In this document: one piece after another, positions 12,279 through 28,767 of the stretch
How the letters are laid out: each line of letters opens with the position of its first letter
Position numbering within the stretch: position 1 is the first letter of the stretch
IMG/VR virus record: IMGVR_UViG_3300009502_000123
Location: 1 to 36,104 of that record
DNA length: 36,104 nt
Reading direction: 5' to 3' (one strand)
From: a virus
Translations under genes and position numbers: made by a program
Notes under the pieces: model-generated
What the model was told of the DNA's origin: nothing
Seen by the model: the letters and a program-made list of their open reading frames with translations, nothing else
The model's database searches: none

Positions 12279-12317
12279 TTTACTTTATTTAGTCTTATTT
12301 GTATAATAGACTAAATA
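12279..12317. promoter_or_regulatory. Divergent promoter region between the GNAT operon and the HNH gene
   Basis: A perfect 9-base inverted repeat, TATTTAGTC (12286 to 12294) and GACTAAATA (12309 to 12317), puts the CTAAATA motif on both strands, pointing outward. Each motif lies about 24 bases before an ATG that has its own Shine-Dalgarno (leftward ATG 12262, rightward ATG 12342). A rightward sigma70-like pair, TTTACT (12279 to 12284) and TATAAT (12302 to 12307) with 17 bases between, overlaps the repeat. Confidence 0.6.
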
Positions 12318-12341
12318 ATAGCATAAATGAAAGGAAAAGTA

Positions 12342-12884
12342 ATGCCAGCTGGAAGAAAAAGAAACCCTGCAGATTTTGTCCAATCGGGCAACCTGATGTA
12401 CAATGTCAACAAGTTTGTGGAGCGTTGCCGAGAACAAGAAGATGGTTGCATCGTTTGGGTCGGGGGCAAACATAGACAGGGCTATGGTATGTGTGGCGGA
12501 CACTATGCCGACACAGGAACACGATTTATGACCACAGCACATCGTGCTGCTGTGGAGATCAAACTCAAAAGAGAACTCACAAGAGATGAGTATGTGATAC
12601 ATTCGGGCTGTACCAACAACCTTTGTGTGAATCCTGAACACTTGTCTGTGGGCGACAGTTTTGAACGCAGCAAACTGATGGTGGAACGGGGCAACAGCAA
12701 TCTGGCCAAGAAGATGAATCCTCCGGCACGCCAACCAAACCGCAAGTACAAATGGACTGATGAAGAGATTCGTTTTGCACGAATGAATGACACAGCGGCC
12801 ATTGCTCGAAAAATGAACATTACCAAAGGCGAAGCAGGTAGAATGCGTTGGGAATGCCGCAAGGGCTATGTGTGGCTGGATTGA
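12342..12884 (+). CDS. HNH homing-type endonuclease with C-terminal helix-turn-helix
   Basis: 180 residues from the ATG at 12342, preferred over one 15 bases earlier because AAGGA stands 8 bases before it. The HNH core runs from about residue 36 to 103: CIVWVGG, GYG, AHR with H67, VIHSGC with H87 and C90, then C95 and the NPEHL motif with N97 and H100. The C-terminus (YKWTDEEIRFARMNDTAAIA) looks like the DNA-binding helix-turn-helix of free-standing phage HNH nucleases. Such enzymes nick or cut specific DNA and often spread as selfish genes. It stands alone, between the divergent promoter and the putative origin region, without an intron nearby. Confidence 0.85.
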   Translation: MPAGRKRNPADFVQSGNLMYNVNKFVERCREQEDGCIVWVGGKHRQGYGMCGGHYADTGTRFMTTAHRAAVEIKLKRELTRDEYVIHSGCTNNLCVNPEHLSVGDSFERSKLMVERGNSNLAKKMNPPARQPNRKYKWTDEEIRFARMNDTAAIARKMNITKGEAGRMRWECRKGYVWLD

Positions 12885-13016
12885 TTCAGCAGCGGGGAGG
12901 AAACGGCAAAAACTCATTCCCCTGCTCAGATCCTCAATGCGTACCGTTAGCACCAGCCCCAGTATTTAACCAAAATGATTGATCAACCATACGGATTTTG
13001 TGTATTATACATAAAT

Positions 13017-13087
13017 AAAAAGTCCGTGGCGTGTTTGTATTAAAAAGTCAGTTGCGTGTAGCAAAATGCAAAAAGTCCGTGGCGTGT
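13017..13087 (+). repeat. Three iteron-like direct repeats
   Basis: AAAAAGTCCGTGGCGTGT occurs at 13017 to 13034 and, identically, at 13070 to 13087. The middle copy at 13042 to 13059 is AAAAAGTCAGTTGCGTGT, with two changes. Copy starts are 25 and 28 bases apart. They end 20 bases before the polymerase promoter. Binding sites for the downstream protein, or for a repressor, are both possible. Confidence 0.8.
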
Positions 13088-13106
13088 GGTATATGTATGT
13101 ATTGTA

Positions 13107-13134
13107 TTGATAGATCTATAACCCCTGATATGAT
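13107..13134 (+). promoter_or_regulatory. Sigma70-type promoter of the polymerase gene
   Basis: TTGATA (13107 to 13112), a 16-base spacer and TATGAT (13129 to 13134) with an extended TG two bases before the -10. Palindrome TAGATCTA (13111 to 13118) overlaps the -35, and ACAGATCTGT (13143 to 13152) lies at the expected transcript start; both share AGATCT and could be operator half-sites. The leader of about 40 bases ends in AGGAG before the ATG at 13183. Confidence 0.65.
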
Positions 13135-13182
13135 GGGATGAAACAGATCTGTATAGATGTTCCTATTCTCAGGAGATGAAAG

Positions 13183-14757
13183 ATGAACTTGAAACTGTTA
13201 TTGGCAAATGAACTGAAAAGACTCTACCCAGATATAAAACCCTATCTATGTGATAGGTATTCTGACAAGTATTATAATGTTGTAATGAATGAAATCCGAA
13301 ACGCACTTCTTAGACCTAGTAATGATAATGATGAGTTGTCATTTAACAAAGAAATGGTTTACAGAAAACGCGGGGTAGTTTCTACCGGTGCTCCCTTGTT
13401 ATCGTTTATGGGCAAGTCTGCATCTACAAGATTGATTGATGTGGTATTCGAAGGCAACCAGGGTAAAATGAGTAGAGTAGTATTGAATGAAAAATATAAG
13501 GAACAAATAATGAATGATCTCATAGATTTAATAGATGAACCCCAAAACAAACTGACAGCAAAAGAGTTGGATGAGTTGTACCAAAAGGCCAACAAAGTCA
13601 TTCCATTGGATCTTATTTCATTGCGCTGCTATATCGAACAGACCAAACTAGATATTGAGAACAGCACTGGCGACTACAAGATCAAAATCAGCAACAACAA
13701 GATTCAAGCAGATCAAATCTTAATGGAAGCACGAGAAGTTGATGGTGAACATTATGCAATGGAATATTGGACCACAGCAGATACAGGTCGTGTCTATGGA
13801 CATTACAACAGTCTGCAAAGAATGCCAAAGAATGTAAGACACGCAGCTCTAGGTGTTTGTCACAAATATGATTTTCAAGCACACAGTTTTGCTGTAATGG
13901 CCAGTTTGGCCAAGATGTTTGATCCCAATCTCAAAATCGCAGCAGTAGAAGATTACATCAGAAACAGAACACGCATTAGAGCCAGAATAGCCCGGGCAGT
14001 TGGAGTCAGTGAAGATCGTATCAAAGAAGTGTTTACCAGTTTGGGCTTTGGTGCCAAACCTATTAGCAATCCCTATACAGCAATACACAGAGCAGTCTAT
14101 GGACAAAACAACTTTGCCAAGTTGATTGCACAACAAGACTTTGTGTTTATCACAGAAGACCTCAAAAAGATCAATCAAGTAATACTGAAAAACTACCCCA
14201 ACGAAGACTTTGTGGGTATGAATGGATACAAGTATACCTGTATGTCTGACAAAGGCAGAAAGAAAGGACCCAACAAGTTGTTGGCCTGGATCTATCAAAA
14301 CTTAGAAGCACACATTACCAATGAGTTTATTAAGATTGTTCGGGAACGCAGTGGGCTTGAACCTTTGCTTACAGTTCACGATTGTGTCTATTACAAAGAT
14401 CCAGTGCCTGCTGCGACTATAACAGATGCAATGTTTCTGTTGCGCGAGGGATTTCAGTTTGTCAAAGTTGAACACGAAAAGATATTCCCCATAACAACAT
14501 CGGAAGACTATAATCAGAGATTTGCTGAACAGGAGGCTGATGAGTTGGCGCATCGGGAACGCATCAAACGAGAAGAACAGTTGGCTCGAGGTTACAAGAG
14601 TATTCTATCCAACAACACAGTTATAAAATACAATCCAGATCCCATAAAAGAAATCATACGACAACTTGAATGGGCTAGAAAACCAGATATTCCAGACGAG
14701 TATGAATATGAGTACGAATACACAGTAAACGAATATCTAGGAGGTAACCGTGATTAA
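13183..14757 (+). CDS. Polymerase-superfamily protein (family A DNA polymerase / single-subunit RNAP-like)
   Basis: 524 residues. The first 180 have no recognised domain; no 3'-5' exonuclease motif is visible. From about 197 the order of family A elements is clear: TGRVYG and LQRMP (201 to 215), motif A with D230 in YDFQAHSFAVMASLA, motif B with K281 and F289-G290 in KEVFTSLGFGAK, a Q372 helix (YQNLEAHITNEFIK) and motif C with H399-D400 in LLTVHDC. Odd points: the position of the DNA polymerase steric-gate Glu is S235, and the residue after the motif C Asp is Cys, where DNA polymerases have Glu and T7 RNA polymerase has Ser. The FGAK end of motif B resembles YGSK of T7 RNA polymerase. A DNA polymerase, a primase-like initiator and an RNA polymerase all remain possible. 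The C-terminus is Glu/Tyr-rich. It is the only replication-type protein recognised, expressed from its own sigma70 promoter. Confidence 0.75.
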   Translation: MNLKLLLANELKRLYPDIKPYLCDRYSDKYYNVVMNEIRNALLRPSNDNDELSFNKEMVYRKRGVVSTGAPLLSFMGKSASTRLIDVVFEGNQGKMSRVVLNEKYKEQIMNDLIDLIDEPQNKLTAKELDELYQKANKVIPLDLISLRCYIEQTKLDIENSTGDYKIKISNNKIQADQILMEAREVDGEHYAMEYWTTADTGRVYGHYNSLQRMPKNVRHAALGVCHKYDFQAHSFAVMASLAKMFDPNLKIAAVEDYIRNRTRIRARIARAVGVSEDRIKEVFTSLGFGAKPISNPYTAIHRAVYGQNNFAKLIAQQDFVFITEDLKKINQVILKNYPNEDFVGMNGYKYTCMSDKGRKKGPNKLLAWIYQNLEAHITNEFIKIVRERSGLEPLLTVHDCVYYKDPVPAATITDAMFLLREGFQFVKVEHEKIFPITTSEDYNQRFAEQEADELAHRERIKREEQLARGYKSILSNNTVIKYNPDPIKEIIRQLEWARKPDIPDEYEYEYEYTVNEYLGGNRD

Positions 14758-14878
14758 AATAATAGTTTGGTGTCGAGTCAAATCAACAGCAATCAAACCC
14801 TGTTGCCAACATCCAGAAGATGCAGTATGTGGCCAACTGTGTTTGCCTATGAAAAACTATCTAAGGGATCACACATAA
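14750..14878 (+). CDS. Cys-rich microprotein, GTG start
   Basis: 42 residues, starting at a GTG 8 bases inside the end of the polymerase gene with a perfect AGGAGG 6 bases before it. It contains five Cys (positions 8, 18, 19, 27, 31) and a His in a CCQH...C...C arrangement that could bind zinc. Translational coupling to the polymerase is likely. The strong ribosome binding site is the main evidence that it is real; no family is recognised. Confidence 0.5.
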   Translation: MIKIIVWCRVKSTAIKPCCQHPEDAVCGQLCLPMKNYLRDHT

Positions 14879-14903
14879 TCAGATCATCGATTTTGTTGTT
14901 ATG

Positions 14904-14911
14904 TATAAATA
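14904..14911 (+). promoter_or_regulatory. TATAAATA late-promoter-like motif
   Basis: Exact match to the T4 late promoter consensus TATAAATA, in the gap between the Cys-rich microgene and the gene at 14948. A transcript starting about 7 bases after it would have a leader of about 30 bases ending in GGAAAGGAAACGAAG. Confidence 0.5.
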
Positions 14912-14947
14912 AATAAGTTAAAGTTAACATTTGGAAAGGAAACGAAG

Positions 14948-15172
14948 ATGGAAGCATTCACAGAACTAATAGCACAACTCAAACGACTCAATGCAAACCT
15001 GGAGCAACTAAGGGGTATTGCACCTCAAGAGCAGATCATTGCTGTTCCAGAACAGCAGTCAGGTAAACTCAAGCAGTTGCTGGGTGAAATAAAACAGATC
15101 AACAAACCATCATTATGGGATAAAATGAATCAAGACCAATATCATAGAGGAGTTCGCAATGGCAAAGTTTAA
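14948..15172 (+). CDS. Small helical protein, function unknown
   Basis: 74 residues with a strong Shine-Dalgarno (GGAAAGGAAA). Leu/Gln/Lys-rich with heptad-like spacing in the first 30 residues (ELIAQLKRLNANLEQLRG) and a second helix (GKLKQLLGEIKQI), so probably coiled coil. Its last 14 bases overlap the next gene. No known family. Confidence 0.6.
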   Translation: MEAFTELIAQLKRLNANLEQLRGIAPQEQIIAVPEQQSGKLKQLLGEIKQINKPSLWDKMNQDQYHRGVRNGKV

Positions 15173-15557
15173 GATCAAACAAATCAAAAAGATGGAACCA
15201 CGAGCAGGACAAAAGTTCTCCACCGAGTACTATCAACAAAGTCAGCGCGACTACGATGACACATTCAAGTTTATGTTGCGGATTATGACTGAAGTATTGG
15301 AAGCAGCAGAACACAACAACTCGACAGGGGATCTCACAGTGCCCCTGCGAGGCTTTCCTCGCACAGGTGGTCGGCCCAACTACACCACAGAAGATATCCT
15401 GTGTGACCTGATTGAACAGTACAAGTTGGGCAGAGATTGGCCCAGCGGTATGGTGGGTCGTTGGAATAGACTGTTTGAAGACTTTCCTGACTATCAGTTG
15501 GAGTTTGTTGAACACATTGATGCCAACAACTTCAACACATTGTTTACCAACCAATAA
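15159..15557 (+). CDS. Hypothetical early protein
   Basis: 132 residues, start inside the end of the preceding gene with AGAGGAG before the ATG. The N-terminus is basic (MAKFKIKQIKKMEP), the rest helical and acidic with aromatic residues; Trp and Gly occur around GRDWPSGMVGRWNRLFED. A terminator follows 8 bases after the stop, so this ends the polymerase-side rightward unit. Not recognised. Confidence 0.6.
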   Translation: MAKFKIKQIKKMEPRAGQKFSTEYYQQSQRDYDDTFKFMLRIMTEVLEAAEHNNSTGDLTVPLRGFPRTGGRPNYTTEDILCDLIEQYKLGRDWPSGMVGRWNRLFEDFPDYQLEFVEHIDANNFNTLFTNQ

Positions 15558-15560
15558 AAG

Positions 15561-15601
15561 AAAAACCCCAACTGTGTTTCAAGCAGTTGGGGTATTCTTT
15601 T
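15561..15601 (+). terminator. Rho-independent terminator after the 15159 gene
   Basis: Perfect 10-base stem ACCCCAACTG (15565 to 15574) and CAGTTGGGGT (15584 to 15593) with a 9-base loop. AAAAAGA-type A-rich sequence precedes it and ATTCTTTT follows it, so it could stop transcription from both sides, which fits the leftward gene to its right. Confidence 0.85.
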
Positions 15602-15610
15602 GGAAAGAAA

Positions 15611-15672
15611 ATGATTTATGGCAATAAATCACTTGGAGGTGTAAGCAAATGACCGCTTACACAAGTATTTAG
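15611..15672 (+). other. Two coupled micro-ORFs (13 and 7 codons) over a hairpin
   Basis: ATG 15611 opens a 13-residue frame with GGAAAG before it, ending in an ATGA overlap with a 7-residue frame whose ATG at 15649 has a GGAGGT site. The second ATG lies in the loop of a perfect 8-base stem (GTGTAAGC 15639 to 15646 with GCTTACAC 15655 to 15662). Both peptides are too short to judge as genes, and the region follows a terminator. Confidence 0.2.
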
Positions 15673-15673
15673 T

Positions 15674-15913
15674 TTATAACTTATTGCCACTCAAGTCAAT
15701 GATTCCGGCACGATTCTCATCTGCTGCCACCTGTTCTCTCAACTCAATGGCTTTGACAGCAAGTTGTTTGTACTCCTCAGTCATCTCGCCATCAATGATC
15801 CAATCATTCAAGATCATATTGACCAACGAATGAATGTCTTCGGGCGACATCTCTGCGCCCAGCAGTTCGCGTACTGTGTATTCAAGTTTGTGTATTAGGT
15901 TTTTGTAGATCAT
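15674..15913 (-). CDS. Small acidic helical protein, function unknown
   Basis: 79 residues, the only leftward gene in the 12.3 to 36 kb part. GAGGAA stands before its ATG. Composition is Glu/Leu/Ile-rich and fully helical (MSPEDIHSLVNMILNDWIID). It is read from the palindromic promoter-like site at 15939 to 15950. No family recognised; a small regulator or inhibitor of a host protein is only a guess. Confidence 0.6.
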   Translation of the reverse strand: MIYKNLIHKLEYTVRELLGAEMSPEDIHSLVNMILNDWIIDGEMTEEYKQLAVKAIELREQVAADENRAGIIDLSGNKL

Positions 15914-15938
15914 TTCTGTTCCTCGTATTTCAATGTCT

Positions 15939-15950
15939 GTAAATATTTAC
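15939..15950. promoter_or_regulatory. Palindromic GTAAATATTTAC, divergent promoter-like site
   Basis: A perfect 12-base palindrome placing TAAATA on both strands between the leftward gene (ATG 15913, leader with GAGGAA) and the rightward gene (ATG 15954, no Shine-Dalgarno). The rightward transcript would be leaderless. Confidence 0.5.
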
Positions 15951-15953
15951 TCA

Positions 15954-16289
15954 ATGCTATATACCATCTATAAACTTACCTATCCGGGCCACGAAGTTGT
16001 TGATCAATACTACAAGTGGAAACTGAACATACCAGAAACTGATCTAGTCAAAGAAGATCGTCCGGGCCCTCCACGCAAAATGAGAAGTACCATCGACTGT
16101 CCTGGTTGCGGAAAAGTGCTGAACTATCATACAATATACACAGATGGTCATAAATGTCCCGGTACACTGACTGATCATCCAGTGCGCCCCGGCAAGCCGC
16201 GTATGGCGTTAAACAAGCATCAAAAAGAACGCCTGTTTCAAGACTATGTGGCACGACAATCACACCCAATCACCTACAGCAATGAATAG
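15954..16289 (+). CDS. Small zinc-ribbon-like protein
   Basis: 111 residues from the ATG at 15954; an in-frame ATG at 15933 exists but would start inside the palindromic promoter-like site. A C-x2-C pair (C49, C52 in DCPGCGKVL) followed by H59, H66 and C68 (HTIYTDGHKC) suggests one zinc site. The C-terminus is basic (RPGKPRMALNKHQKERLF). Zinc-ribbon proteins of this size often bind DNA or RNA polymerase, which makes it one candidate for a late transcription factor; that is inference only. Confidence 0.6.
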   Translation: MLYTIYKLTYPGHEVVDQYYKWKLNIPETDLVKEDRPGPPRKMRSTIDCPGCGKVLNYHTIYTDGHKCPGTLTDHPVRPGKPRMALNKHQKERLFQDYVARQSHPITYSNE

Positions 16290-16494
16290 TTACAGAATAC
16301 AGTTGGTCAAACACTTTGAGATATCAATCGAAGTGGAGGCCGAAAATGCCATTTGGGCACAGCGAGCCGCAGAAGATCAATGCCCCGGCTATACTGCACA
16401 AGGCATAACTTGGCTCAATGCTCCGCCTCCAGAACCTGTTGTAAAAAAACCACGGGCACCCCGCAAGCCCCGTGTGGCAAAAACGCCACAGTAG
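16282..16494 (+). CDS. Small protein with basic Pro/Arg/Lys tail
   Basis: 70 residues from the ATG at 16282, which overlaps the previous stop by 8 bases. The first 50 residues alternate strands and a helix (IQLVKHFEISIEVEAENAIW) with a pattern similar to the gene at 16958 (strand, A-x-[NS] helix, YxxxxITW), so the two may be distant paralogues. The tail (VVKKPRAPRKPRVAKTPQ) is strongly basic and may bind nucleic acid. No clear Shine-Dalgarno; coupling to the previous gene is likely. Confidence 0.55.
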   Translation: MNSYRIQLVKHFEISIEVEAENAIWAQRAAEDQCPGYTAQGITWLNAPPPEPVVKKPRAPRKPRVAKTPQ

Positions 16495-16537
16495 TTTTGG
16501 TACAAAAAGACACCCCCGAACATTCAGTGAAGAAGAG

Positions 16538-16553
16538 TAATACTTGAGTATTA
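16538..16553. promoter_or_regulatory. Inverted repeat, operator candidate
   Basis: TAATACT and AGTATTA form a perfect 7-base inverted repeat around TG. It lies 24 bases before the -35 of the cassette operon promoter. Too short a loop for a hairpin terminator, so a dimeric protein site is more likely. Confidence 0.4.
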
Positions 16554-16576
16554 GTTGCAGAAATACAACACCCCGT

Positions 16577-16605
16577 TTGCACAATAATGACATTTAGCAT
16601 ACAAT
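16577..16605 (+). promoter_or_regulatory. Sigma70-type promoter of the cassette operon
   Basis: TTGCAC (16577 to 16582), a 17-base spacer and TACAAT (16600 to 16605). The expected transcript start is near 16612, giving a leader of about 30 bases ending in AAGGAGCACACA before the ATG at 16641. Confidence 0.65.
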
Positions 16606-16640
16606 AGTGGCTTAAACAACAACGCTTCAAGGAGCACACA

Positions 16641-16961
16641 ATGAAACGCTACTATATTTTGGGCAACTATATGTCACGCAACAAAACGCCATATGTGGCT
16701 GGATGGGACTATCATTTTAGTGAATCAGGCGATGGTCTTTCTACTATTCATCAGGTTGAAGATTATACTTGTTCTGTGCTTGGTGATCGCAGTTATGACA
16801 AGGCTATGGTTAAAACTGGTAAAGAACTTGCTCGCAAGGCGGGTGTTCGTGTTAAAGACGCCAGTGCCATTGTTGTTAAAGAATCCACAAAGAACAGCAT
16901 TGAACAGCATTTTGCTCCTGAACTATACAAAACTATTTGGATTATGGAGGCCGCAGAATGA
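16641..16961 (+). CDS. First gene of the cassette operon, function unknown
   Basis: 106 residues, with AAGGAG before the ATG. Mixed alpha/beta composition; the segment DRSYDKAMVKTGKELARKAG is helical and basic. The C-terminus ends in MEAAE, read from the repeated junction sequence that also starts the next gene (ATGA overlap). No family recognised. Host-takeover proteins often look like this in small early operons, which is inference from context. Confidence 0.65.
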   Translation: MKRYYILGNYMSRNKTPYVAGWDYHFSESGDGLSTIHQVEDYTCSVLGDRSYDKAMVKTGKELARKAGVRVKDASAIVVKESTKNSIEQHFAPELYKTIWIMEAAE

Positions 16962-17125
16962 ACACATATTTTGTCCGCATACAAACACGCACGGATGACT
17001 TCAATGTTCAGATCCGTGCTGATTCCAAAGAACACGCAGAGGCAATCGTGCGTGAAGATTACACTAACATATATCAGATTAATATTACTGACATTACCTG
17101 GTCAGAATTGGAGGCCTCAGAATGA
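16958..17125 (+). CDS. Second gene of the cassette operon, function unknown
   Basis: 55 residues, starting in an ATGA overlap with GGAGG 7 bases upstream. Strand-helix-strand layout (YFVRIQTRTDDFNVQIRADS, then KEHAEAIVREDY, then INITDITW) similar to the gene at 16282. The last residues are ELEASE from the repeated junction. Not recognised. Confidence 0.6.
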   Translation: MNTYFVRIQTRTDDFNVQIRADSKEHAEAIVREDYTNIYQINITDITWSELEASE

Positions 17126-17316
17126 GAACTTTTACAGCATTCAAGCAAGGTAAACTATTTGAGATGAAACAACAAGGCGACAGAATTGTAGTGACAACCT
17201 ATGATCCTCAATCACCCGACATTGAACAGGCATTATCTGGTAAGACACGAGTGCTTGTTCCAGGTAGCATTGTTTTATGGGACAAACTGGTTAAAGAATT
17301 GGAGGCCTCAGAATGA
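17122..17316 (+). CDS. Third gene of the cassette operon, function unknown
   Basis: 64 residues, ATGA overlap with the previous gene and the same GGAGGCCTCAGA junction before its start. Mostly beta strands (KLFEMKQQGDRIVVTTYD, TRVLVPGSIVLWDKL), compatible with a small SH3- or OB-like barrel, though this is only a composition-based impression. Ends in ELEASE from the repeated junction. Confidence 0.6.
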   Translation: MRTFTAFKQGKLFEMKQQGDRIVVTTYDPQSPDIEQALSGKTRVLVPGSIVLWDKLVKELEASE

Positions 17317-17519
17317 GCAAAGATTTCTATATAGTGACAGGCACCAATCCCGCAACAGGTAATCAAGTAGATCAAGACTTTTGGCGATTTGAGCCAGCCG
17401 CGCAAGCCAGCAAGAACGAATTTTGGATCGCTATGGACGATGTTTGTGTAATGAAGTGCCGCCCGACCAAGACTGACCGTGATGGGATTGCGGCACCAGA
17501 ATTGGAGGCCGCAGAATGA
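17313..17519 (+). CDS. Fourth gene of the cassette operon, function unknown
   Basis: 68 residues, ATGA overlap with the previous gene, same junction sequence before its start. Contains two Cys (CVMKC) and several aromatics. Ends in ELEAAE from the repeated junction, whose ATG opens only a 4-codon frame (17516 to 17530). Not recognised. Confidence 0.6.
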   Translation: MSKDFYIVTGTNPATGNQVDQDFWRFEPAAQASKNEFWIAMDDVCVMKCRPTKTDRDGIAAPELEAAE

Positions 17520-17530
17520 TTAAAACCTAA
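17516..17530 (+). pseudogene. Four-codon frame at the last junction, possible remnant of a lost cassette gene
   Basis: ATG ATT AAA ACC TAA follows the fourth junction, with the full GGAGG site. Its Shine-Dalgarno lies in a perfect 8-base stem (TTGGAGGC 17502 to 17509 with GCCTCCAA 17532 to 17539). It may mark a deleted gene, or be a short stop-signal peptide. Confidence 0.3.
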
Positions 17531-17553
17531 AGCCTCCAAGTTTACGGGTTCGG

Positions 17554-17579
17554 GCCCTGCTAATACCAGGGCTTTTTTT
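17554..17579 (+). terminator. Rho-independent terminator of the cassette operon
   Basis: GCCCTG (17554 to 17559) and CAGGGC (17567 to 17572) form a perfect 6-base stem with a 7-base loop, followed by seven T. It separates the early operon from the late genes. Confidence 0.85.
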
Positions 17580-17642
17580 GTGACCGTACGATCTGCTACG
17601 CCAACCCCCACGCAACGGAAAAGGTTTCAGAAAAACTCTACA

Positions 17643-17649
17643 CTAAATA
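17643..17649 (+). promoter_or_regulatory. CTAAATA motif before the terminase small-subunit candidate
   Basis: CTAAATA ends 5 bases before the ATG at 17655 and no Shine-Dalgarno is present, which fits a leaderless late transcript. It is the first such motif of the late region. Confidence 0.5.
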
Positions 17650-17654
17650 ACAGT

Positions 17655-18017
17655 ATGACTAATGAACAGAAAATCAATGCAAAGACAGGCAAGCCTAAGG
17701 TGTCAAGCCGTGGAGGCGCCAGACCCAACGCGGGCCGTCCCAAAGGTTCCAGCAACAAGCTCAAGATGGAAGATCTACTACAGGACCTTGAACTGGTACT
17801 AGGAAAGACCTACAGTGAACAAATAGCTGAGAACTATGTGCTCAGCATAGGCCGCAGTGATTGGGCCAGCGTAAGAGACTATGACAAGATCCTGTTGGGC
17901 AAGATCATAGCAGACAGACAAGCAGTAGAAGTCACAGACAGTGCCGAGAGCGTGGAAGCCAAGAAGGCTGCTTTCGCTGATGCACTGGCTTCAATGACCG
18001 GCATCAAAAAGGAATAA
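17655..18017 (+). CDS. Terminase small-subunit candidate
   Basis: 120 residues from the ATG at 17655. The N-terminal SSRGGARPNAGRPKGSSNK is the GARPxAGRPKG signature common at the start of phage terminase small subunits and related DNA-binding proteins. A helical region follows, then an Ala/Lys-rich C-terminus (KKAAFADALASMTGIKK). Small subunits recognise the packaging site and form a ring that hands DNA to the large subunit. It lies 3.8 kb before the large subunit rather than next to it, so the protein at 21436 is an alternative. Confidence 0.5.
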   Translation: MTNEQKINAKTGKPKVSSRGGARPNAGRPKGSSNKLKMEDLLQDLELVLGKTYSEQIAENYVLSIGRSDWASVRDYDKILLGKIIADRQAVEVTDSAESVEAKKAAFADALASMTGIKKE

Positions 18018-18018
18018 T

Positions 18019-18288
18019 ATGTCAGTACCCGTTAGTCCATTGTACACGGTAGAGAGTCGTCCAGTTGCTCGGACCAATCCCAAGGGCAACACGCAAACAC
18101 TGAGCAACAGTGAAGCACATCGAAGTTTGAAGAGCCAGGCTGTACCACACAGTGGACATATGAGTGAAAAGTCCAAGCACTATCACGCACGAATAGTTGG
18201 TACCAATACCGAACGAGCAGTGGATGGTCTAAATCCCACAACTGCAAGACCCAATCCAAGATCATTTCCGGGACTGGCCAACGGCTAA
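18019..18288 (+). CDS. Small basic, Ser/His-rich protein, function unknown
   Basis: 89 residues, one base after the previous stop, with AAGGAATAAT upstream. Rich in Ser, Arg, His and Pro, likely disordered. The piece MSEKSKHYHARI resembles SKHRAKASEHYSK in the protein at 18492, so the two may be related. Part of a block of small cationic proteins in the head module. Confidence 0.6.
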   Translation: MSVPVSPLYTVESRPVARTNPKGNTQTLSNSEAHRSLKSQAVPHSGHMSEKSKHYHARIVGTNTERAVDGLNPTTARPNPRSFPGLANG

Positions 18289-18301
18289 CAGAGCCGAGAC
18301 A

Positions 18302-18308
18302 CTAAATA
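18302..18308 (+). promoter_or_regulatory. CTAAATA motif before the 18325 gene
   Basis: CTAAATA in the 36-base gap between two genes, followed by TAGGAAACACA and the ATG at 18325. The expected transcript would have a leader of about 10 bases. Confidence 0.45.
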
Positions 18309-18324
18309 AAGTATAGGAAACACA

Positions 18325-18495
18325 ATGCCTCTAATAAAAAGTAAAAGTCCCCGAGCCTTCTCTGAGAATGTCAAGCGTGAGATAGCAGCCGGTAAGCCAC
18401 AGCGACAAGCAGTGGCCATTGCCTATGCTACCAAACGAGCAGCTGGTGCAAAGAAAACACGAGCTCCAGCAACAGCAAAGGCCCGAAAGAAATGA
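18325..18495 (+). CDS. Small basic phage protein of the KPQRQAVAIAY type
   Basis: 56 residues. It begins PLIKSKSPRAFSENVKREIA, followed by AAGKPQRQAVAIAYATKR, a pattern I know from many small phage and bacterial proteins of unknown function (KPQ-QA-AIAY). The C-terminus is an Ala/Lys/Arg-rich tail (KKTRAPATAKARKK) suited to binding nucleic acid. Good TAGGAAA site upstream. A DNA-binding virion or packaging role is inferred from charge and position. Confidence 0.7.
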   Translation: MPLIKSKSPRAFSENVKREIAAGKPQRQAVAIAYATKRAAGAKKTRAPATAKARKK

Positions 18496-18794
18496 TGAGC
18501 AAACATCTAGCAGTCACACAGAACCGTAAGGCCTCATTGGCAGCGGACCGTGGAGAAAGCGCAACACCATACCATCCCAGCAACAGCAGTACAGTAAGTG
18601 CAGCTGGTGGTAGCAAGAGTTTCGTAGAGTCACCAATGCCAGTGCATAGTAAGCATCGTGCAAAAGCCAGTGAACACTACAGCAAAAACACAGTGGAAGC
18701 CAGTTATGTGCGTCCCAGTGCAACCAAGATGACTCGCACCGAGCATCAGTTAAACAACCAAGAAGATATGTCAGAGAAAGGGCATAAGTTATGA
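18492..18794 (+). CDS. Small basic Ser/His-rich protein, function unknown
   Basis: 100 residues, ATGA overlap with the previous gene (a second ATG follows immediately at 18495). Low-complexity Ser/Ala/Lys/His-rich and probably unfolded on its own. Stop overlaps the next start (ATGA). Similar in style to the protein at 18019. No family recognised. Confidence 0.55.
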   Translation: MMSKHLAVTQNRKASLAADRGESATPYHPSNSSTVSAAGGSKSFVESPMPVHSKHRAKASEHYSKNTVEASYVRPSATKMTRTEHQLNNQEDMSEKGHKL

Positions 18795-19081: not shown

Positions 19082-19082
19082 T

Positions 19083-19487: not shown

Positions 19488-19490
19488 TCG

Positions 19491-19844: not shown

Positions 19845-19853
19845 GGACCCGAT

Positions 19854-20386: not shown

Positions 20387-20391
20387 ACTGT

Positions 20392-20541: not shown

Positions 20542-20566
20542 TATCAGACAGTAACTTGTATTGATA

Positions 20567-20633: not shown

Positions 20634-20650
20634 ACTCTTAAGGAATAGAA

Positions 20651-21780: not shown

Positions 21781-23409
21781 ATGCTTGATCCCAACCTGTT
21801 GATGCGTAGAGCACTGCGATATGCTTGCGACGAACACGGTCTCAAAGTCAACAATCTACACCATATGCCCTTTGCTGCCAAACAGGCCTTAGAGGAGTAT
21901 GTGGTAGAGATTGCTGAAGATATGCGCTACAACCAACTCAAGTACTTCAGACCATTTGATCATCAACGCCGGTTCTTTCGCACAGGCTCCAGTCCACGCC
22001 GTGGTATTCTTGCTGCCAACCGTATTGGTAAAACTGTCAGCACCTGCTTTGAAACTGCAATGCACTTGACTGGTCGTTATCCAGCGTGGTGGGAAGGCAA
22101 ACGCTTTGACAAGCCTGTCAGCGCAATGGTAGCAGGCGAAGGTTGGAGTCAGGTTGCCCTAGTGTTGCAGGCTGAACTGTTGGGTACCAATGACATCAAG
22201 ATCCGTGATGCACTGGGCACGGGAGCCATTCCCCGTGACTGTATTGTGTTTGACACAATGCGTAATGATGGTGCCAACTGTATTGGTGTAGAAGTCAGAC
22301 ACAAGTCAGGTACCAACAGCTATCTATTGTTTGCCAACTACACACAAGAAGTACGACAGATGCAGGGTTTCAAACTGAACCTGGCCATCTTTGACGAACA
22401 ACCACCAGATGACTTCTTCTCAGAAATCGTTACTCGTACTGCCACAACACAGGGACAGGTATTGTGCTCGTTCACACCCCTAAAAGGTCTCAACGGACTG
22501 GTAAGTAAGTTTTGGCACCAAGAAGAAGGCTATGAACATATTAGAGTCAGCTGGGATGATGTGCCCGAATACGATCCCTGGGGCGAACCATTCTTATTAA
22601 ACTCAACAAGGCAACAACTTGAAAGAGACTATCTACCTCACGAACGCGATGCTCGTCGCAATGGTGTTCCTGTTATGGGCAAGGGAGCAGTGTTTCAGAT
22701 TCGAAACTGGCCCATTTATAATACTGGTGACTACGATTTTCGCAGTATGCCTGGCCTGTGCCGCATTATTAGTCTGGACTTGGGTCTAGTAAACGACAAG
22801 ACAGTTATATCATTGATGTACTGGCATCCCGAAGAACAGTTGGCCTGGCTGCACACACAGGTTGTGGTCAAGGGCACAGAAGAAGCCAACCCCACCAACT
22901 ATATCAATCATCTAATGCGCCCCGAAGTGTTTGGCACGCCTATTGTGCTGCCCGCAGATGCCAACAGTCAAGGTCGTTACACAATGAGCAGCCAAAGTCT
23001 ACGCGAGTTCTTTGAACAGTATGAACTCAATGTGCATCCTGAGGCCATTATGAACCCGCCAGATGATCAAGGACGCAGAACCAACCACAAGAGTTTTGGT
23101 ATAAATGTGATGCGACAAATGTTGGAGCAGGGCACTCTGCAGATCAATGCCAACTGCACAGAGTTTCTACGAGAAGCACAAAACTACTATGTGGATGAAC
23201 GGGGACGCTTCAGTGATCCCGATGACTGCATTGACAGTGCTCGCTATGGATTGATAGGATGCCTACAGGGCATAGCTGAACCCTATGATGGACGCAGCCC
23301 ACAACAGCGCATTGCCACTGCTCGACACAATCTACGGGTAATGACAGCCACAAAGAACCGTCAATACGAAACAGATCCACTCAAGCGTGTCTACAGTTCC
23401 AGCGAATAA
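21781..23409 (+). CDS. terL: Terminase large subunit
   Basis: 542 residues, the usual length. ATPase part: Walker A AANRIGKT (78 to 85), Walker B LAIFDE (201 to 206) followed by a coupling motif near LCSFTPLKG (228 to 236). Nuclease part (RNase H fold): first Asp in RIISLDLGLVNDKT (D333) and the last acidic motif in DPDDCIDSARYGL near residue 480. It pumps DNA into the procapsid and cuts the concatemer. AAGGATTCTAA ending in the previous stop gives the ribosome site. The gene context (small subunit, portal) agrees. Confidence 0.95.
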   Translation: MLDPNLLMRRALRYACDEHGLKVNNLHHMPFAAKQALEEYVVEIAEDMRYNQLKYFRPFDHQRRFFRTGSSPRRGILAANRIGKTVSTCFETAMHLTGRYPAWWEGKRFDKPVSAMVAGEGWSQVALVLQAELLGTNDIKIRDALGTGAIPRDCIVFDTMRNDGANCIGVEVRHKSGTNSYLLFANYTQEVRQMQGFKLNLAIFDEQPPDDFFSEIVTRTATTQGQVLCSFTPLKGLNGLVSKFWHQEEGYEHIRVSWDDVPEYDPWGEPFLLNSTRQQLERDYLPHERDARRNGVPVMGKGAVFQIRNWPIYNTGDYDFRSMPGLCRIISLDLGLVNDKTVISLMYWHPEEQLAWLHTQVVVKGTEEANPTNYINHLMRPEVFGTPIVLPADANSQGRYTMSSQSLREFFEQYELNVHPEAIMNPPDDQGRRTNHKSFGINVMRQMLEQGTLQINANCTEFLREAQNYYVDERGRFSDPDDCIDSARYGLIGCLQGIAEPYDGRSPQQRIATARHNLRVMTATKNRQYETDPLKRVYSSSE

Positions 23410-23415
23410 AAAATA

Positions 23416-23423
23416 CATAAATA
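23416..23423 (+). promoter_or_regulatory. CATAAATA motif before the portal gene
   Basis: CATAAATA in the gap after the terminase stop, 23 bases before the portal ATG, followed by AGGAAATC. It fits the NATAAATA form of T4-type late promoters. Confidence 0.55.
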
Positions 23424-23446
23424 ATAAACACAACAGGAAATCCCGA

Positions 23447-25723
23447 ATGTTAGATTTACGCAATGTAGTCATCAGCAACCTAAACGATCACAGTGGCGAA
23501 ATGGCCCGTTTCGTAAAAATGAAGAGCTTGCTGGACCAAAAATGTGCAGCCAACCTGCGTTTGTTGGCCACAAAGAACAACATCAACCGCACAGCCGATT
23601 ATCACTACCTCAACCTTGCCATTGAGGACAGCACTGCTCCTGTCAATGGATTGGACTATATCCATCCGGTGGTCAAACCCGTAGTTGATTATGCCTCAAG
23701 TGTCATTACCAAAGGTATTGCACAAAATGGCGAGATCAACTTTGAGTTTGTGGCCGACAATGAAGCAGACGAAGCGGCAGCGAGACAGGCAACGGAGATG
23801 GTTCACAAGATCATTAACCAAAACAATGATCCGCACTTTATACTACAACACTGGACAATGGATGCTTGCCTACACAAAAATGGCGAGATGATGGTCAGTC
23901 CAATGCGTGAACAGATTGTGCGCTATGTCAAAACGCAAGGCACGCTAGATCAACTTCGTGCATTTGAAACACAAGCAGAAGAAGCAGGACTCCGAGCCAA
24001 ACGCCGCAGTCGTCGTAAGTTGTCTGTGGATCACACACGAGTACTACACGAAACACAACAGTTCCTACAAGGCATTCCTGCTGTACAACGAGCACAGCAC
24101 ATCCAAGACACAATGGATAAACTGCGAGCTGGTGCTGATGGCGACTTTGAATCTGCTGAACAGGTCACAGACTTGCCAGACCTAGAAGTAGATGGAGCAC
24201 ACGCCGCTATTCGTGACAGCGTGAATCGCAACACCATATATGAAGCCAGCTACAAGATGACTGGCTACAACCTAAACATCAAGTTCCGTCCCATAGCCCA
24301 ACACTATTGGATGTGCGATCCTACTGTGATCAGCATTGAAGAACAACCATTCTGTGGTTACTACAAACCAATGAGTATACAGGAAGCAACTGAACTGTAT
24401 CCTGACATTGATTTGGAGCAGTTCAAGATCTATGCCGAATACAGTAATGTTGGTAGTTACCAGGCAGGTAGTTTGTTAAACAACTTGGCCATTCACGCTC
24501 GTGACTCAGTACCTATCAATGGTTTGCCAGCACAAGGTTATAGTGCTCAAGAACCAGAAGCCCGTCAAGTCACAGTGCTCACAGTATGGAACCGCTATGA
24601 CATTGACAATGATGGCGAGCTTGAACTGATTGAACTGATCTACTCTGGTCAGTATGTTATTTCAGCCCGTGAAGTTGAGTTCATTCCTGTGGCCAATATG
24701 GTACCAAAACCCTTGCCACAAAACTTCTATGGTATGAGCATTGCTGAATCAGTTATTCCTATGCAGGAGTATATGACATCAGGTCACCGTGCCGAACTAC
24801 AGTTGGGCTTGTTGCAATCAACCAGTCGTATTGGTGTTAAACCAGACCGTCTAGACTTTGAAGAACTGGCTGATGGTGAAGCAGCAATCTTTATTTTGGA
24901 CAGCAAGTTCAATCCTGCCACCGACATCTATCAAATCCCGGGACCCACAGGCGACATTCGTTTCATTGACCAGGCTATGAACCGTCTACAACAAGACAGT
25001 ATGGCTATGGTTGGTATGACCACTCCACAAGATGTGTTCAACCCAGAAGTTATGGATCCAGGTAACTCAGGTGCCAAACTAAACTTGGCTTTAAGTCCAA
25101 ACCAAATCATTCAAGACAACACTGTGAAGAATGCTGCCGAAGGTCTTAAGGATGCCATTTGGTTGATCTGGCGTACACTGATTGCACACGGTGATGACTA
25201 TGGTGTCAAGAAACTGGCACAACAGTTCCACCCCGAAGGCCGGGCAGAGTTTATGGACTACGAAAACTTCGACAATATGAACTACAACGAACGCAAGACC
25301 ATTCACATTGATCTTGCTCTAGGTATGAAGTCAGAAGAAAACAGTCTACAACGCCTACAGGTCATCAAACAGGCACAAATGGGTCTAACACAAGAAGTCA
25401 CAGCTGGAGTTGCAAGTGGTGCATTGACTGTGAACAGCTTCAAGAAGATTCGCAAGCCCTACGAAGATATGTTGTATGTGTTGGGTGTCAAAGACTGCGA
25501 TACCTATTTGCCCACAGCTGATGAAGTTATGGAAATGGTCAAACAAAGCCAAGCTGCCAAACAGCAACAAGGTCCAAGTCCAGATGATCAGAAGAAAACT
25601 GCTGATGCACAACTTGCACAAGCACGAGCACAAGAGATCATTGCGGATATGAATGGCAATGACGCTAAACGACAACTTGAAGGTTATGCCCTAATGGGAC
25701 AACACAAGGCCCGTGCCTTCTAA
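23447..25723 (+). CDS. Portal protein (P22/SU10 type)
   Basis: 758 residues from the ATG at 23447, which has AGGAAATCCC upstream; a frame opening at 23387 would overlap the terminase gene and lacks such a site. Length fits large P22-like portals (725 residues). Portal-typical segments include PIAQHYWMCDPTVISIEE, MVPKPLPQNFYGMSIAESVI and the long stem helices near DIRFIDQAMNRLQQDSMAMV. Twelve copies form the DNA channel at one vertex. The C-terminal 60 residues are Gln/Lys/Ala-rich and helical (barrel-like). Direct placement after the terminase supports the call. Confidence 0.88.
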   Translation: MLDLRNVVISNLNDHSGEMARFVKMKSLLDQKCAANLRLLATKNNINRTADYHYLNLAIEDSTAPVNGLDYIHPVVKPVVDYASSVITKGIAQNGEINFEFVADNEADEAAARQATEMVHKIINQNNDPHFILQHWTMDACLHKNGEMMVSPMREQIVRYVKTQGTLDQLRAFETQAEEAGLRAKRRSRRKLSVDHTRVLHETQQFLQGIPAVQRAQHIQDTMDKLRAGADGDFESAEQVTDLPDLEVDGAHAAIRDSVNRNTIYEASYKMTGYNLNIKFRPIAQHYWMCDPTVISIEEQPFCGYYKPMSIQEATELYPDIDLEQFKIYAEYSNVGSYQAGSLLNNLAIHARDSVPINGLPAQGYSAQEPEARQVTVLTVWNRYDIDNDGELELIELIYSGQYVISAREVEFIPVANMVPKPLPQNFYGMSIAESVIPMQEYMTSGHRAELQLGLLQSTSRIGVKPDRLDFEELADGEAAIFILDSKFNPATDIYQIPGPTGDIRFIDQAMNRLQQDSMAMVGMTTPQDVFNPEVMDPGNSGAKLNLALSPNQIIQDNTVKNAAEGLKDAIWLIWRTLIAHGDDYGVKKLAQQFHPEGRAEFMDYENFDNMNYNERKTIHIDLALGMKSEENSLQRLQVIKQAQMGLTQEVTAGVASGALTVNSFKKIRKPYEDMLYVLGVKDCDTYLPTADEVMEMVKQSQAAKQQQGPSPDDQKKTADAQLAQARAQEIIADMNGNDAKRQLEGYALMGQHKARAF

Positions 25724-25725
25724 GA

Positions 25726-25733
25726 TATAAATA
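25726..25733 (+). promoter_or_regulatory. TATAAATA motif after the portal gene
   Basis: Exact TATAAATA, immediately after the portal stop and 20 bases before the ATG at 25753, which has GGAATAGAA. Identical to the T4 late promoter consensus. Confidence 0.55.
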
Positions 25734-25752
25734 ACTTTAGATTGGAATAGAA

Positions 25753-26106
25753 ATGTTGACACAAGAAACGATTGATGCGTTTAACAATCGCCTGACCATT
25801 GACTTGAACAGTATCAAGAAGATGACAGCGGCACAGTTAGATCGTGTCAAGACACAGGGCAGTCAAGCTGAAAACTTGATTGCCAATAGAGATTTTGCCC
25901 AGTTTGTTCATACATTCAAGTTTGAACGAATGGACCAACTTAGTGAGATCCAAGGACACACTGAGGATGATGATAAGAAACGAGTTGCTATCATTAATCA
26001 GATAGCAGGCGTAGATGAGTTTGTGAAGTCGCTGCGACGAGCAGTGTACTTCCGAGACCGAGTGGTAAGCCAACAGAACAAAGGTTCTGACAGCCCCAAC
26101 TCATAA
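25753..26106 (+). CDS. Small helical head-module protein, function unknown
   Basis: 117 residues, fully helical and charged (IDLNSIKKMTAAQLDRVKTQ, RVAIINQIAGVDEFVKSLRR). It lies between portal and scaffold genes. A small assembly factor is plausible; no family is recognised. Confidence 0.6.
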   Translation: MLTQETIDAFNNRLTIDLNSIKKMTAAQLDRVKTQGSQAENLIANRDFAQFVHTFKFERMDQLSEIQGHTEDDDKKRVAIINQIAGVDEFVKSLRRAVYFRDRVVSQQNKGSDSPNS

Positions 26107-26123
26107 TGAAAGGAAATCCTTAA

Positions 26124-27332
26124 ATGGAAAACATAGTGCAGGACCGCCCTAATCTCATTCCTGAGACGGTACCGGTTCAAAAAGTCGATAGTGGTTTAGA
26201 TGCAATAGCAGCCAAAATGGCCGCAATGAAAGAAATGACATTGCGTAACCAAATGACAGCTACTAACACAGTCGAAGCAGGGTCAGAAACACCGGCAGGT
26301 GCCAATGCTCCTGTGGCCCCAGAGGGAGTCAAAGTTGACGACAATGTCGACAGCGATACCGATTTAGTAGAGCCAGAAGTTGTTGAACCAGAAGCAGAGT
26401 ATAGTGAAGGCAATGATGAAGCAGTAGCCCCAGATCAAGATGATCAGGTAAGCGGTGCAGATTCAACAAGCGAGGACTTGATCGACTTCTTAGATTTCGC
26501 AGAGACTAATCCGAACGCCAAGTTCAAGTTTATGCGTAATGGTAAGGAGATCACGATTGATGCCAAGAAAGCCGCAGCCATACTGGGTCAAGGTGCAGCA
26601 ATAAGCGAAGATGCAAGACAGTTGAAGATTGAAAAAGCTGAGTTTGATGAATATCTACAAACAAAGCGAGCGGAACAAGAAGGTCTTGTTCTGGCAATGG
26701 AGTTTACTGTAAGACCTCAACTACAAAAGGCTTACGATGAAATCATAAAAACGCAACAGTACCAAAATACTTTTGCACAACAGTTGGCTGCTACGAACGA
26801 TCCTGCACAACAGGCCCGTATTCGTGCAAATATGCAACAAAACGAAAACTATATTCGCCAACAAAGCGATCTAGTTAAACAGTTGAAGCCAAATGTTGAT
26901 CAGTTCTATGACATTCGTAAGCAGCAGGTAGCTGAAGCCTTGGAAACCAGTCGTAAAAACTTTAAGGACAAAGATCTGCGAAACAGTGTTGTCTACAATG
27001 AAATACGCGACAAGGTTGCTGACGGCTGGGATGGTGCCCGTAGACAACTAGTGCCAGGCATTGATAACATTGATCTAATCGTAAGCGACGAACACATTAT
27101 GTCGTTGGTGCGAGACGGATTGAAGTATCGTGATAGACCCAAGACTCGCAGTGCTGGTGGCAGCATTGCAGCATTGACCAATCGCAAGAGTAGCAGTAAT
27201 CTACCTAGTCCAAAATCAACAGATACTTTCGGAGATCTTCGAGAAAAAGCCAGGGGCGGCGATACAAAAGCCGCAGATAATCTACTGATGCAGCAGTTGA
27301 ACGCACTTCGTTCGCAGCGCAGAGGTAGATAA
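26124..27332 (+). CDS. Scaffolding protein candidate
   Basis: 402 residues with GAAAGGAAATCC before the ATG. The first 120 residues are acidic and disordered (Glu/Asp/Val/Pro), then a conserved-looking helical start (DLIDFLDFAETNPNAKFKFM), a long Gln/Lys/Glu helix-rich centre (about 165 to 275), and a basic C-terminus ending RSQRRGR. Acidic N-terminus, coiled-coil centre and basic C-terminal end that can bind capsid protein are the classic layout of scaffolds. It sits directly before the major capsid gene. Confidence 0.75.
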   Translation: MENIVQDRPNLIPETVPVQKVDSGLDAIAAKMAAMKEMTLRNQMTATNTVEAGSETPAGANAPVAPEGVKVDDNVDSDTDLVEPEVVEPEAEYSEGNDEAVAPDQDDQVSGADSTSEDLIDFLDFAETNPNAKFKFMRNGKEITIDAKKAAAILGQGAAISEDARQLKIEKAEFDEYLQTKRAEQEGLVLAMEFTVRPQLQKAYDEIIKTQQYQNTFAQQLAATNDPAQQARIRANMQQNENYIRQQSDLVKQLKPNVDQFYDIRKQQVAEALETSRKNFKDKDLRNSVVYNEIRDKVADGWDGARRQLVPGIDNIDLIVSDEHIMSLVRDGLKYRDRPKTRSAGGSIAALTNRKSSSNLPSPKSTDTFGDLREKARGGDTKAADNLLMQQLNALRSQRRGR

Positions 27333-27342
27333 AAAAAGAAGA

Positions 27343-27350
27343 CATAAATA
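27343..27350 (+). promoter_or_regulatory. CATAAATA motif before the major capsid gene
   Basis: CATAAATA 17 bases before the capsid ATG, in a 35-base A-rich gap, followed by AAAAGGAAAATAA. The expected leader is about 10 bases. Confidence 0.55.
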
Positions 27351-27367
27351 AATCAAAAGGAAAATAA

Positions 27368-28702
27368 ATGTCATTTATCTCAACATCAACCATTGGCAAC
27401 GGAACAGGTACCTACCAAACTGATATCGTTGTTAAGGATTTGGACCTAGATGTGTCCAACCGCGTCAAAGACGACACCCCCGTATTGAATATGTGTATGG
27501 CTAAGAAACGCAAAGTTGTTTCTACATTGCCACTATGGACAAACGATGTGTATCGTCTACCACAAACTCAAGCTCAGCTTGAAGGTGCTGCTGTTAGCAA
27601 TACACAAGTAGAAGCCAACCAGCGTGCCAACTTGGGTAACTACACACAGATCTTCTCAACAGTTGTTGGTGCCACAGGTACTGCTCGTGCTGTTGAACAA
27701 GCTGGTGGTGATCCTCAAGCATACCAAGAAGTAAAACAGTTGATCGAACTGATGTTCGATGTGGAAGCACAAATCGTTCGTGCTGACCAAATCGGTACTA
27801 AGTATTCTGGTCAGAGCGGTTTGGCTTCTGGTGTTGGTATTCCAGCAACAGTATTCACATACCCTACAGGCGATGCTAACCCAAACAACACCAGCGCCAA
27901 TGTCACAGTTGCAGCTTACGGTGTTCAAACAACTACTAGTGCTACTGGTCGTCGTATGGGTTCTTTGAACGCATTCGCAGGTACACACAGTTTCAACCCA
28001 GTTGGATCTGGCACATACTACACAGTTTACAACAACGAATCTAGTGATACTACTACACAAGGTACTGGTAACACTTGGGTTGTTGGTGGTAGCTTGGTAA
28101 GTGGTAGCTTGTCTAACACAGGTGAAGGTCTAGGATCTAGTTTCTATTCTTACACTGGCGTGTTGCAACAGTTCGCTCCATCGTTGTACAAACAGTTGGT
28201 TACAACTGCTGAACAACGCTTCAACGCAAAAATCCGCACTATTGTTTGCCCAACAAGTTTGCGTACACACCTTTCTGATACAATGCCTACAAGCCGTAGT
28301 ATCAACCGTGTGAACAGCGAGCGTGGTGACACTATTGCTACATACGAAGGCGACTTCAACTACACATACGAGATTTTCGATTCTTGGATTATGGATCAAG
28401 TTGGTTCTGGTAACCAGATCTACTTCTTGAACGAAGAAGTCTTGCAATGGGGTAGCTTGCGCGACCTAGGACCTAACAATGAAATCTTCTCGAACGCAGA
28501 TGCGAGTCTTGATCAGTTCATTATGGAAGGTACATTGATTGTTCGTAACCCAGCTGGTGTTGCTGCTCTGCACGACATCTCTGCAAGCGGTCAAAGTGTA
28601 TCGTTTGGTTCTGGCAACGGCGGTGCTTCTAGCATCATCGGTGGAACTCGACCAGCAAGCAATGTGGTACGCTTGAATGCGTGGGACAATGCCAGCTTCT
28701 GA
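27368..28702 (+). CDS. Major capsid protein, SU10 (DUF5309) type
   Basis: 444 residues. The order of motifs fits the SU10 capsid family: NRVKDDTPVLNMC (start of the fold), LWTNDVYRLPQTQAQLEGAA, the RANLGNYTQIFSTVVGATGT strand with ARAVEQAG, a long spine helix (YQEVKQLIELMFDVEAQIVR), GRRMGSLNAF, and near the end RTIVCPTSLRTHLS and YEIFDSWIMDQVGSGNQIYF. This family adopts the HK97 fold and builds podovirus heads. A Gly/Thr/Ser-rich insertion lies between about residues 180 and 270. GroEL dependence would fit the GroES-like gene of this phage. A terminator follows the stop. Confidence 0.92.
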   Translation: MSFISTSTIGNGTGTYQTDIVVKDLDLDVSNRVKDDTPVLNMCMAKKRKVVSTLPLWTNDVYRLPQTQAQLEGAAVSNTQVEANQRANLGNYTQIFSTVVGATGTARAVEQAGGDPQAYQEVKQLIELMFDVEAQIVRADQIGTKYSGQSGLASGVGIPATVFTYPTGDANPNNTSANVTVAAYGVQTTTSATGRRMGSLNAFAGTHSFNPVGSGTYYTVYNNESSDTTTQGTGNTWVVGGSLVSGSLSNTGEGLGSSFYSYTGVLQQFAPSLYKQLVTTAEQRFNAKIRTIVCPTSLRTHLSDTMPTSRSINRVNSERGDTIATYEGDFNYTYEIFDSWIMDQVGSGNQIYFLNEEVLQWGSLRDLGPNNEIFSNADASLDQFIMEGTLIVRNPAGVAALHDISASGQSVSFGSGNGGASSIIGGTRPASNVVRLNAWDNASF

Positions 28703-28729
28703 TCTTAACGATTAGTCTGCATAGACCGG

Positions 28730-28756
28730 AAGGGCCTTTAGGGGCCCTTTCTTTTT
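28730..28756 (+). terminator. Rho-independent terminator after the capsid gene
   Basis: AAGGGCC (28730 to 28736, with A at 28730 and 28731) pairs with GGCCCTT (28743 to 28749) around a 6-base loop; TTTCTTTTT follows. It separates capsid expression from the downstream tail genes. Confidence 0.85.
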
Positions 28757-28760
28757 GACG

Positions 28761-28767
28761 CTAAATA
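28761..28767 (+). promoter_or_regulatory. CTAAATA motif after the capsid terminator
   Basis: CTAAATA ends 4 bases before the ATG at 28772; no Shine-Dalgarno is present, and a terminator stands just upstream. The gene therefore needs its own start of transcription, and a leaderless mRNA is the simplest reading. Confidence 0.55.

Follow-up and report, generated by a model that had tools for sequence, protein, structure and literature searches.

A short box, [CA]TAAATA, is very probably a promoter element used throughout a clade of small tailed phages, judging from where it stands in their genomes. The window analyzed here is a stretch of 36,104 bases from an uncultured IMG/VR virus record, which encodes terminase, portal, major capsid protein and other tailed-phage virion proteins. 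Its 3′ end breaks within a run of GGT codons, and its flanking genes and gene order are kept in most relatives, so the window looks nearly complete except for part of a tail gene. Whole-window counts of the motif were unremarkable and without significance (2 versus 0.95 expected for TATAAATA, 12 versus 7.3 for YTAAATA, and 7 versus 4.3 for ATAAATA). Only placement was significant. Twelve of the 14 copies of [CA]TAAATA in the window are intergenic, in gaps that amount to 1,544 bases, or 4.3% of the whole. Dinucleotide-shuffled gaps contained 1.26 copies, and none of 2,000 shuffles reached 12 (binomial 3e-15), a frequency well above expectation.

At the left of the window, AATAAATA (3792–3799, plus strand) lies 4 bases from the ATG of gene 3804, which begins 5 nt past the last A. 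Between the divergent GNAT and HNH genes, two copies of ACTAAATA face outward. The minus-strand copy (12286–12293) is the putative promoter of a leftward GNAT/GroES-like/c18 unit; it stands 23 bases from the ATG of gene 12262, and its transcript start is predicted near 12280. The plus-strand copy (12310–12317) stands 24 bases from the ATG of the HNH gene (start 12342), just downstream of a sigma-70-like TTTACT-17-TATAAT (12279–12307). The pair forms a perfect inversion of GACTAAATA (12286–12317), and divergent copies recur at the same spot in relatives. Further right, all on the plus strand, are overlapping copies of TATAAATA/AATAAATA (14904–14915; copies at 14905 and 14909, 36 and 32 bases from the ATG of gene 14948), and copies of ACTAAATA before gene 17655 (17642–17649; 5 bases to the ATG, which begins 6 nt past the last A) and gene 18325 (18301–18308; 16 bases). 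Farther right still, CATAAATA precedes the portal gene (23447) by 23 bases (23416–23423) and the major capsid gene (27368) by 17 (27343–27350), TATAAATA precedes gene 25753 by 19 (25726–25733), and GCTAAATA precedes gene 28772 by 4 (28760–28767), with the ATG 5 nt past the last A. Genes 17655 and 28772 are predicted to be leaderless.

The preliminary description had listed 13 places for the motif, and about 10 of these hold. The sites at 15913 and 15954 are weaker, both resting on one shared palindrome, GTAAATATTTAC, without the C or A, as is that before gene 20651, a TTAAATA 77 nt distant. Orthologues of gene 15954 do carry C/TTAAATA 4–8 nt from the ATG. As a class, TTAAATA is rare in gaps (16 of 124), yet it recurs before orthologues of gene 6069. 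Two further gap copies, at 13011 and at 15666 on the minus strand, have no obvious gene.

For comparison, we searched IMG/VR with the capsid and terminase proteins and retained the best 80 of hundreds of matches for each. Twelve relatives (34–55 kb) were compared whole, giving 13 near-complete motif-bearing genomes with the window, and family-wide gap statistics were drawn from 87 non-redundant loci. The family consists of small (∼36 kb), uncultured, mostly freshwater tailed phages. GenBank holds one relative, MW202484, with ∼50–58% protein identity to the window. Two genes found nearly clade-wide are unexpected in a phage of 36 kb: a Dps/ferritin-like protein (10408–10857; PF00210, 1e-9) and a GroES-like Cpn10 protein (11189–11431; PF00166, 3e-7).

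In a pattern-free search of the gaps of the 87 loci, the most enriched 7-mer was CTAAATA, which outranked even the ribosome-binding site. It occurred 121 times, versus 12.5 expected and 1.7 at the coding rate. Its orientation was almost invariant: in gaps between co-directional genes, 185 copies of the motif ran along the genes and 1 ran opposite. The observation made in the preliminary description is confirmed and proves stronger than it was put there, the family having the motif ahead of nearly all transcription units. The base 5′ of the C was also constrained: all 108 gap copies had A or G there, versus 33 of 62 copies outside gaps (p=9e-16), where the other 29 had a pyrimidine. The motif was present in all 13 near-complete genomes, at orthologous places. 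It preceded orthologues of gene 25753 in 13 of 13 genomes, the HNH gene in 11 of 12, gene 17655 in 10 of 12, gene 18325 in 10 of 11, the portal gene in 10 of 13 and gene 28772 in 9 of 13, and was found in the GNAT gap in 10 of 12. Motif enrichment was missing from the sister clade of MW202484 (CTAAATA, 5 observed versus 7.8 expected), whose TerL is ∼50% identical and which comes partly from the same metagenome samples.

Distances from motif to ATG were bimodal, with 58 sites at 4–6 bases, 120 sites at 15–29 bases, and almost nothing between. A Shine–Dalgarno element was present in 114 of 120 sites of the longer class versus 0 of 58 of the shorter. Thus, at about one-third of sites, the ATG begins 5–7 bases past the motif and lacks a Shine–Dalgarno. 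The shorter class is best read as giving leaderless mRNAs, whose first base would be the A of AUG. On this reading, the box would end with its last A near –6, as T4 late promoters do. Terminator-like hairpins were found just upstream of 26 of 59 leaderless-class sites versus 1 of 139 other sites; in the window, hairpins at 17552–17574 and 28728–28751 (the latter on the plus strand and resembling an intrinsic terminator) precede the leaderless-class sites at 17642 and 28760, respectively. No conserved –35 element was seen upstream of the motif in family gaps, and the sequence downstream of the box is A/T-rich. These data support the view of the motif as a promoter with one element only, positioned in the register of T4 late promoters.

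Other promoters in the family look like those of the housekeeping sigma. Twelve perfect TTGACA-N16/17-TATAAT promoters stand before small early-type genes of relatives, and 9 of the 12 carry [CA]TAAATA inside the spacer, at varying positions. With sites called early or late by gene content and position rather than by expression, 17 of 38 early motif sites have sigma-70-like sequences beside them, versus 2 of 49 late ones. Sigma-70 requires an A at –11. In the register proposed here, the motif has a T at –11, and it does not show the features of a housekeeping promoter (TATAAT with –11A and –7T, plus a –35 or an extended –10); 47 of 49 late sites have no sigma-70 elements. Because perfect sigma-70 promoters exist separately, the host housekeeping polymerase appears ordinary in specificity and the motif box something else. 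The motif very probably marks a second class of promoters throughout the clade, one that probably serves middle and late genes. Use in late genes only, as first worded, is unproven, since early-type genes are preceded by the motif too, in many cases within a perfect sigma-70 promoter. The units at 16641 and 13183 have sigma-70-like promoters (for gene 13183, TTGATA-16-TATGAT at 13107–13134, plus strand) and no [CA]TAAATA directly before them; these are possible early-only genes.

The box closely resembles late promoters of the T4 family, which carry a/gC at –13/–12 and lack a –35 (PMC2988020); those of T4 itself have TATAAATA at –13 to –6 and no –35 (PMC1524935; PMC2988020). With the start placed at the leaderless-class ATGs, the box of the small phages would read [RC/NA]TAAATA at –13 to –6. 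It shares with T4 late promoters, which are recognized by RNAP carrying gp55 together with gp33 and gp45, the single box, the core TAAATA, the probable register, the missing –35 and the A/T-rich downstream sequence. It differs in that C is common at –12, many starts are predicted to be leaderless, and the genome is ∼36 kb with no detectable gp55 or clamp. The closest match is Aeromonas phage Aeh1, whose late promoters have CTAAATA from –12 (PMC1524935) and a/gC at –13/–12 (PMC2988020), that is, a purine and C before TAAATA with the C at –12. However, Aeh1 has a diverged gp55, whereas the family has no recognizable one and also uses copies of NATAAATA. The latter is the late box of cyanomyoviruses, but these have large T4-like genomes carrying the T4 late-transcription genes. 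In RB49 and cyanophages, early and late promoters are reported to overlap, and S-PM2 and Syn9 have genes with both (PMC2984593). A podovirus precedent is phiEco32, with a single-element promoter, a start 6–8 bp downstream, and its own sigma without region 4 (PMC8948821). Like the family, as far as sequence goes, phiEco32 combines sigma-70 early promoters with a single-element second class, and it also encodes a Dps-family protein. Yet its middle/late box (tAATGTAtA, read by the sigma gp36) is different, and the family has no gp36 homologue. In literature of partial coverage, we found no earlier report of the motif in small phages.

We searched the 12 genomes for known readers of such a box. 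The gp55 profiles phrog_234 and phrog_12791 gave no match, while phrog_234 matched the positive controls T4, Moby and S-RIM8. Likewise, neither the sliding clamp gp45 (PF02916, which matched T4) nor the bacterial beta clamp (PF00712) was found in these genomes, consistent with the earlier remark that gp55 and the clamp could not be recognized. The sigma-70 region 2 profile (Sigma70_r2) had no match in the 12 genomes, and neither did the phiEco32 gp36 protein and phrog_1740, both of which matched phiEco32. The PF00940 profile matched nothing, controls included, and so is uninformative. Profile–profile comparison of family proteins with gp55 by hhalign was also negative, though a very diverged gp55 could escape it. 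Its top entry, c12 (gene 28772; E 0.023, probability 2%), was rejected as a spurious alignment; c12 is a strongly conserved gene beside the capsid gene. At the level of promoter sequence, the view that the box works like a T4 late promoter is well supported. That the family has a T4 late system is not, because the tested proteins (gp55 and sliding clamps) were not found. Since neither the T4 proteins searched for nor known sigma factors turned up in the family, an unrecognized reader probably exists.

We favor a reading in which host core polymerase, joined by an unrecognized phage factor, recognizes the motif; it seems likely, with less assurance than the promoter itself. When the phage enters, early genes would be transcribed from TTGACA-N17-TATAAT promoters by host RNA polymerase and the housekeeping sigma. 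Later, the core enzyme would open [CA]TAAATA with another specificity factor, most probably one that the phage encodes. Such a factor would act like T4 gp55 or phiEco32 gp36, recognizing a –10 box alone. The core of this promoter class would be [RC or NA]TAAATA, lying around –13 to –6, with a start 5–6 bases downstream of [CA]TAAATA. Where the ATG falls exactly at the start, the mRNA would be leaderless; elsewhere, a leader of ∼10–24 nt would carry a Shine–Dalgarno. Copies within early promoters might keep these genes on later, or the new holoenzyme might displace sigma-70 there. A fuller version can be put forward only tentatively: in this ∼36 kb clade, the factor would have evolved independently or been reduced beyond recognition, so that host RNAP reads a T4/Aeh1-type late promoter with no phage clamp, no recognizable sigma and partly leaderless late mRNAs, and the HNH/HTH protein or c2, described below, would be its possible carrier.

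The main rival is a host alternative sigma, the clade having adopted the promoter of a host regulon. A search of genome contigs for the host with the capsid and terminase found no near relative, so this reading stays in contention, and a host factor would explain the failure to detect a phage sigma. It would also fit that several bacterial phyla have leaderless genes immediately preceded by a –10 box. We consider a host sigma unlikely, however. We know of no bacterial sigma with the consensus [RC/NA]TAAATA, and a T in place of sigma-70's A at the proposed –11 also speaks against one. Moreover, the motif is common to divergent relatives and missing from a sister clade sampled partly in the same metagenomes, and its presence ahead of almost every structural gene looks like a programme supplied by the phage. 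An archaeal TATA box was rejected: it needs ∼25 bases before the start, and the motif would stand 5–6 bases before it.

A phage single-subunit RNA polymerase might instead read the motif, either the 524 aa protein of gene 13183 (13183–14757, plus strand) or one hidden in a giant virion protein. By eye, the 524 aa protein keeps motifs like those of family-A and single-subunit polymerases (YDFQ, K..F.SLGFGAK and VHDC), and some single-subunit polymerase promoters are short and A/T-rich. But a start ∼6 nt past the box is what a bacterial –10 element would give, and Pfam, PHROGs, NCBIfam and PDB sequence searches left the protein unclassified. Its only counterpart is a 389 aa ORF of one relative, aligned at 26% identity (D230, K281 and H399-D400 shared); other relatives have primase/helicase-like genes in its place. 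Found in 2 of 13 genomes, versus the motif in all, it cannot be the common reader, and we regard this explanation as quite improbable. Positions inside sigma-70 spacers, together with the conserved HNH/HTH protein, would suit an operator, bound by a phage protein that represses or activates sigma-70 promoters. This is very improbable, given that sigma-70 elements are nearly absent from late sites and that the motif's place within the spacer varies. A start element is indicated by the non-palindromic sequence, the strand bias and the fixed 4–6 nt spacing from leaderless ATGs. Finally, the motif nearly always lies on the coding strand shortly before start codons, as a signal in the RNA for mRNA processing or translation start would. 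Yet in early promoters it is upstream of the sigma-70 start and so absent from that RNA, it often follows terminators, and a ribosome site would not fit before the ATG in the leaderless class. An RNA-level role is extremely unlikely.

If a phage factor is the reader, it should be distributed like the motif. By co-occurrence in two clades only, which also differ in many other genes, three proteins are candidate readers. Two of them are the early-region genes common to all 13 genomes. The first is an HNH endonuclease-like protein with a C-terminal helix-turn-helix (12342–12884, plus strand), which heads the early region and is a candidate DNA-binding factor. HNH residues are kept in nearly all members, and the sister clade has two weak matches only. 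Its predicted fold gave weak matches to I-PpoI and HTH domains and no sigma-like match in the PDB. The other is c2, a mostly helical 79 aa protein (15674–15913, minus strand) present in 13 of 13 motif-bearing genomes but undetected in the sister clade. It was predicted to form three helices (pLDDT 88), and c2 had no match in a phage collection. The third and weaker candidate, the 61 aa c18 (10994–11179, minus strand), has the same distribution as c2. Other genes that all or nearly all members of the motif clade have, and that went undetected in the sister clade, include c10 (17655) and those of the Dps-like and GroES-like proteins. The GNAT protein was set aside, being present in the motif-less sister clade as well. 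The preliminary description had sought a new transcription factor among the early proteins at 14948–17519. In this comparison, the proteins of gene 14948 and of 16641–17519 are confined to the window and so are unlikely readers of a clade-wide motif; only c2, in the same interval, passes the distribution filter. The predicted fold of c2 had no match in the PDB, to a sigma or otherwise.

Should the favored reading be correct, the T4-late promoter code would reach well outside the T4-like genomes, and its reader would be a yet undiscovered minimal factor for promoter recognition, different from known sigmas and perhaps <200 residues long. The clade offers a clean comparison between motif-bearing genomes and a motif-less sister, with a short list of candidates, and the start sites of the predicted leaderless late genes are directly checkable.

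Several other features were noted in the early region. Three copies of AAAAAGTC[C/A]GT[G/T]GCGTGT (13017–13034, 13042–13059 and 13070–13087; 0 expected by chance) lie just upstream of the polymerase-like gene 13183; these iteron-like repeats are perhaps an origin or a regulator site. After the strongest sigma-70 promoters of four relatives (G001, G005, G008 and G009), an early leader near CACATTGTTAAACATTAAGGAGGCTTACA is conserved, although the small proteins downstream differ. In the window, the four small overlapping genes at 16641–17519 share GGAGGCC.CAGAATGA, which encodes a C-terminal E-A-[SA]-E and also provides the ribosome site and start of the next gene.
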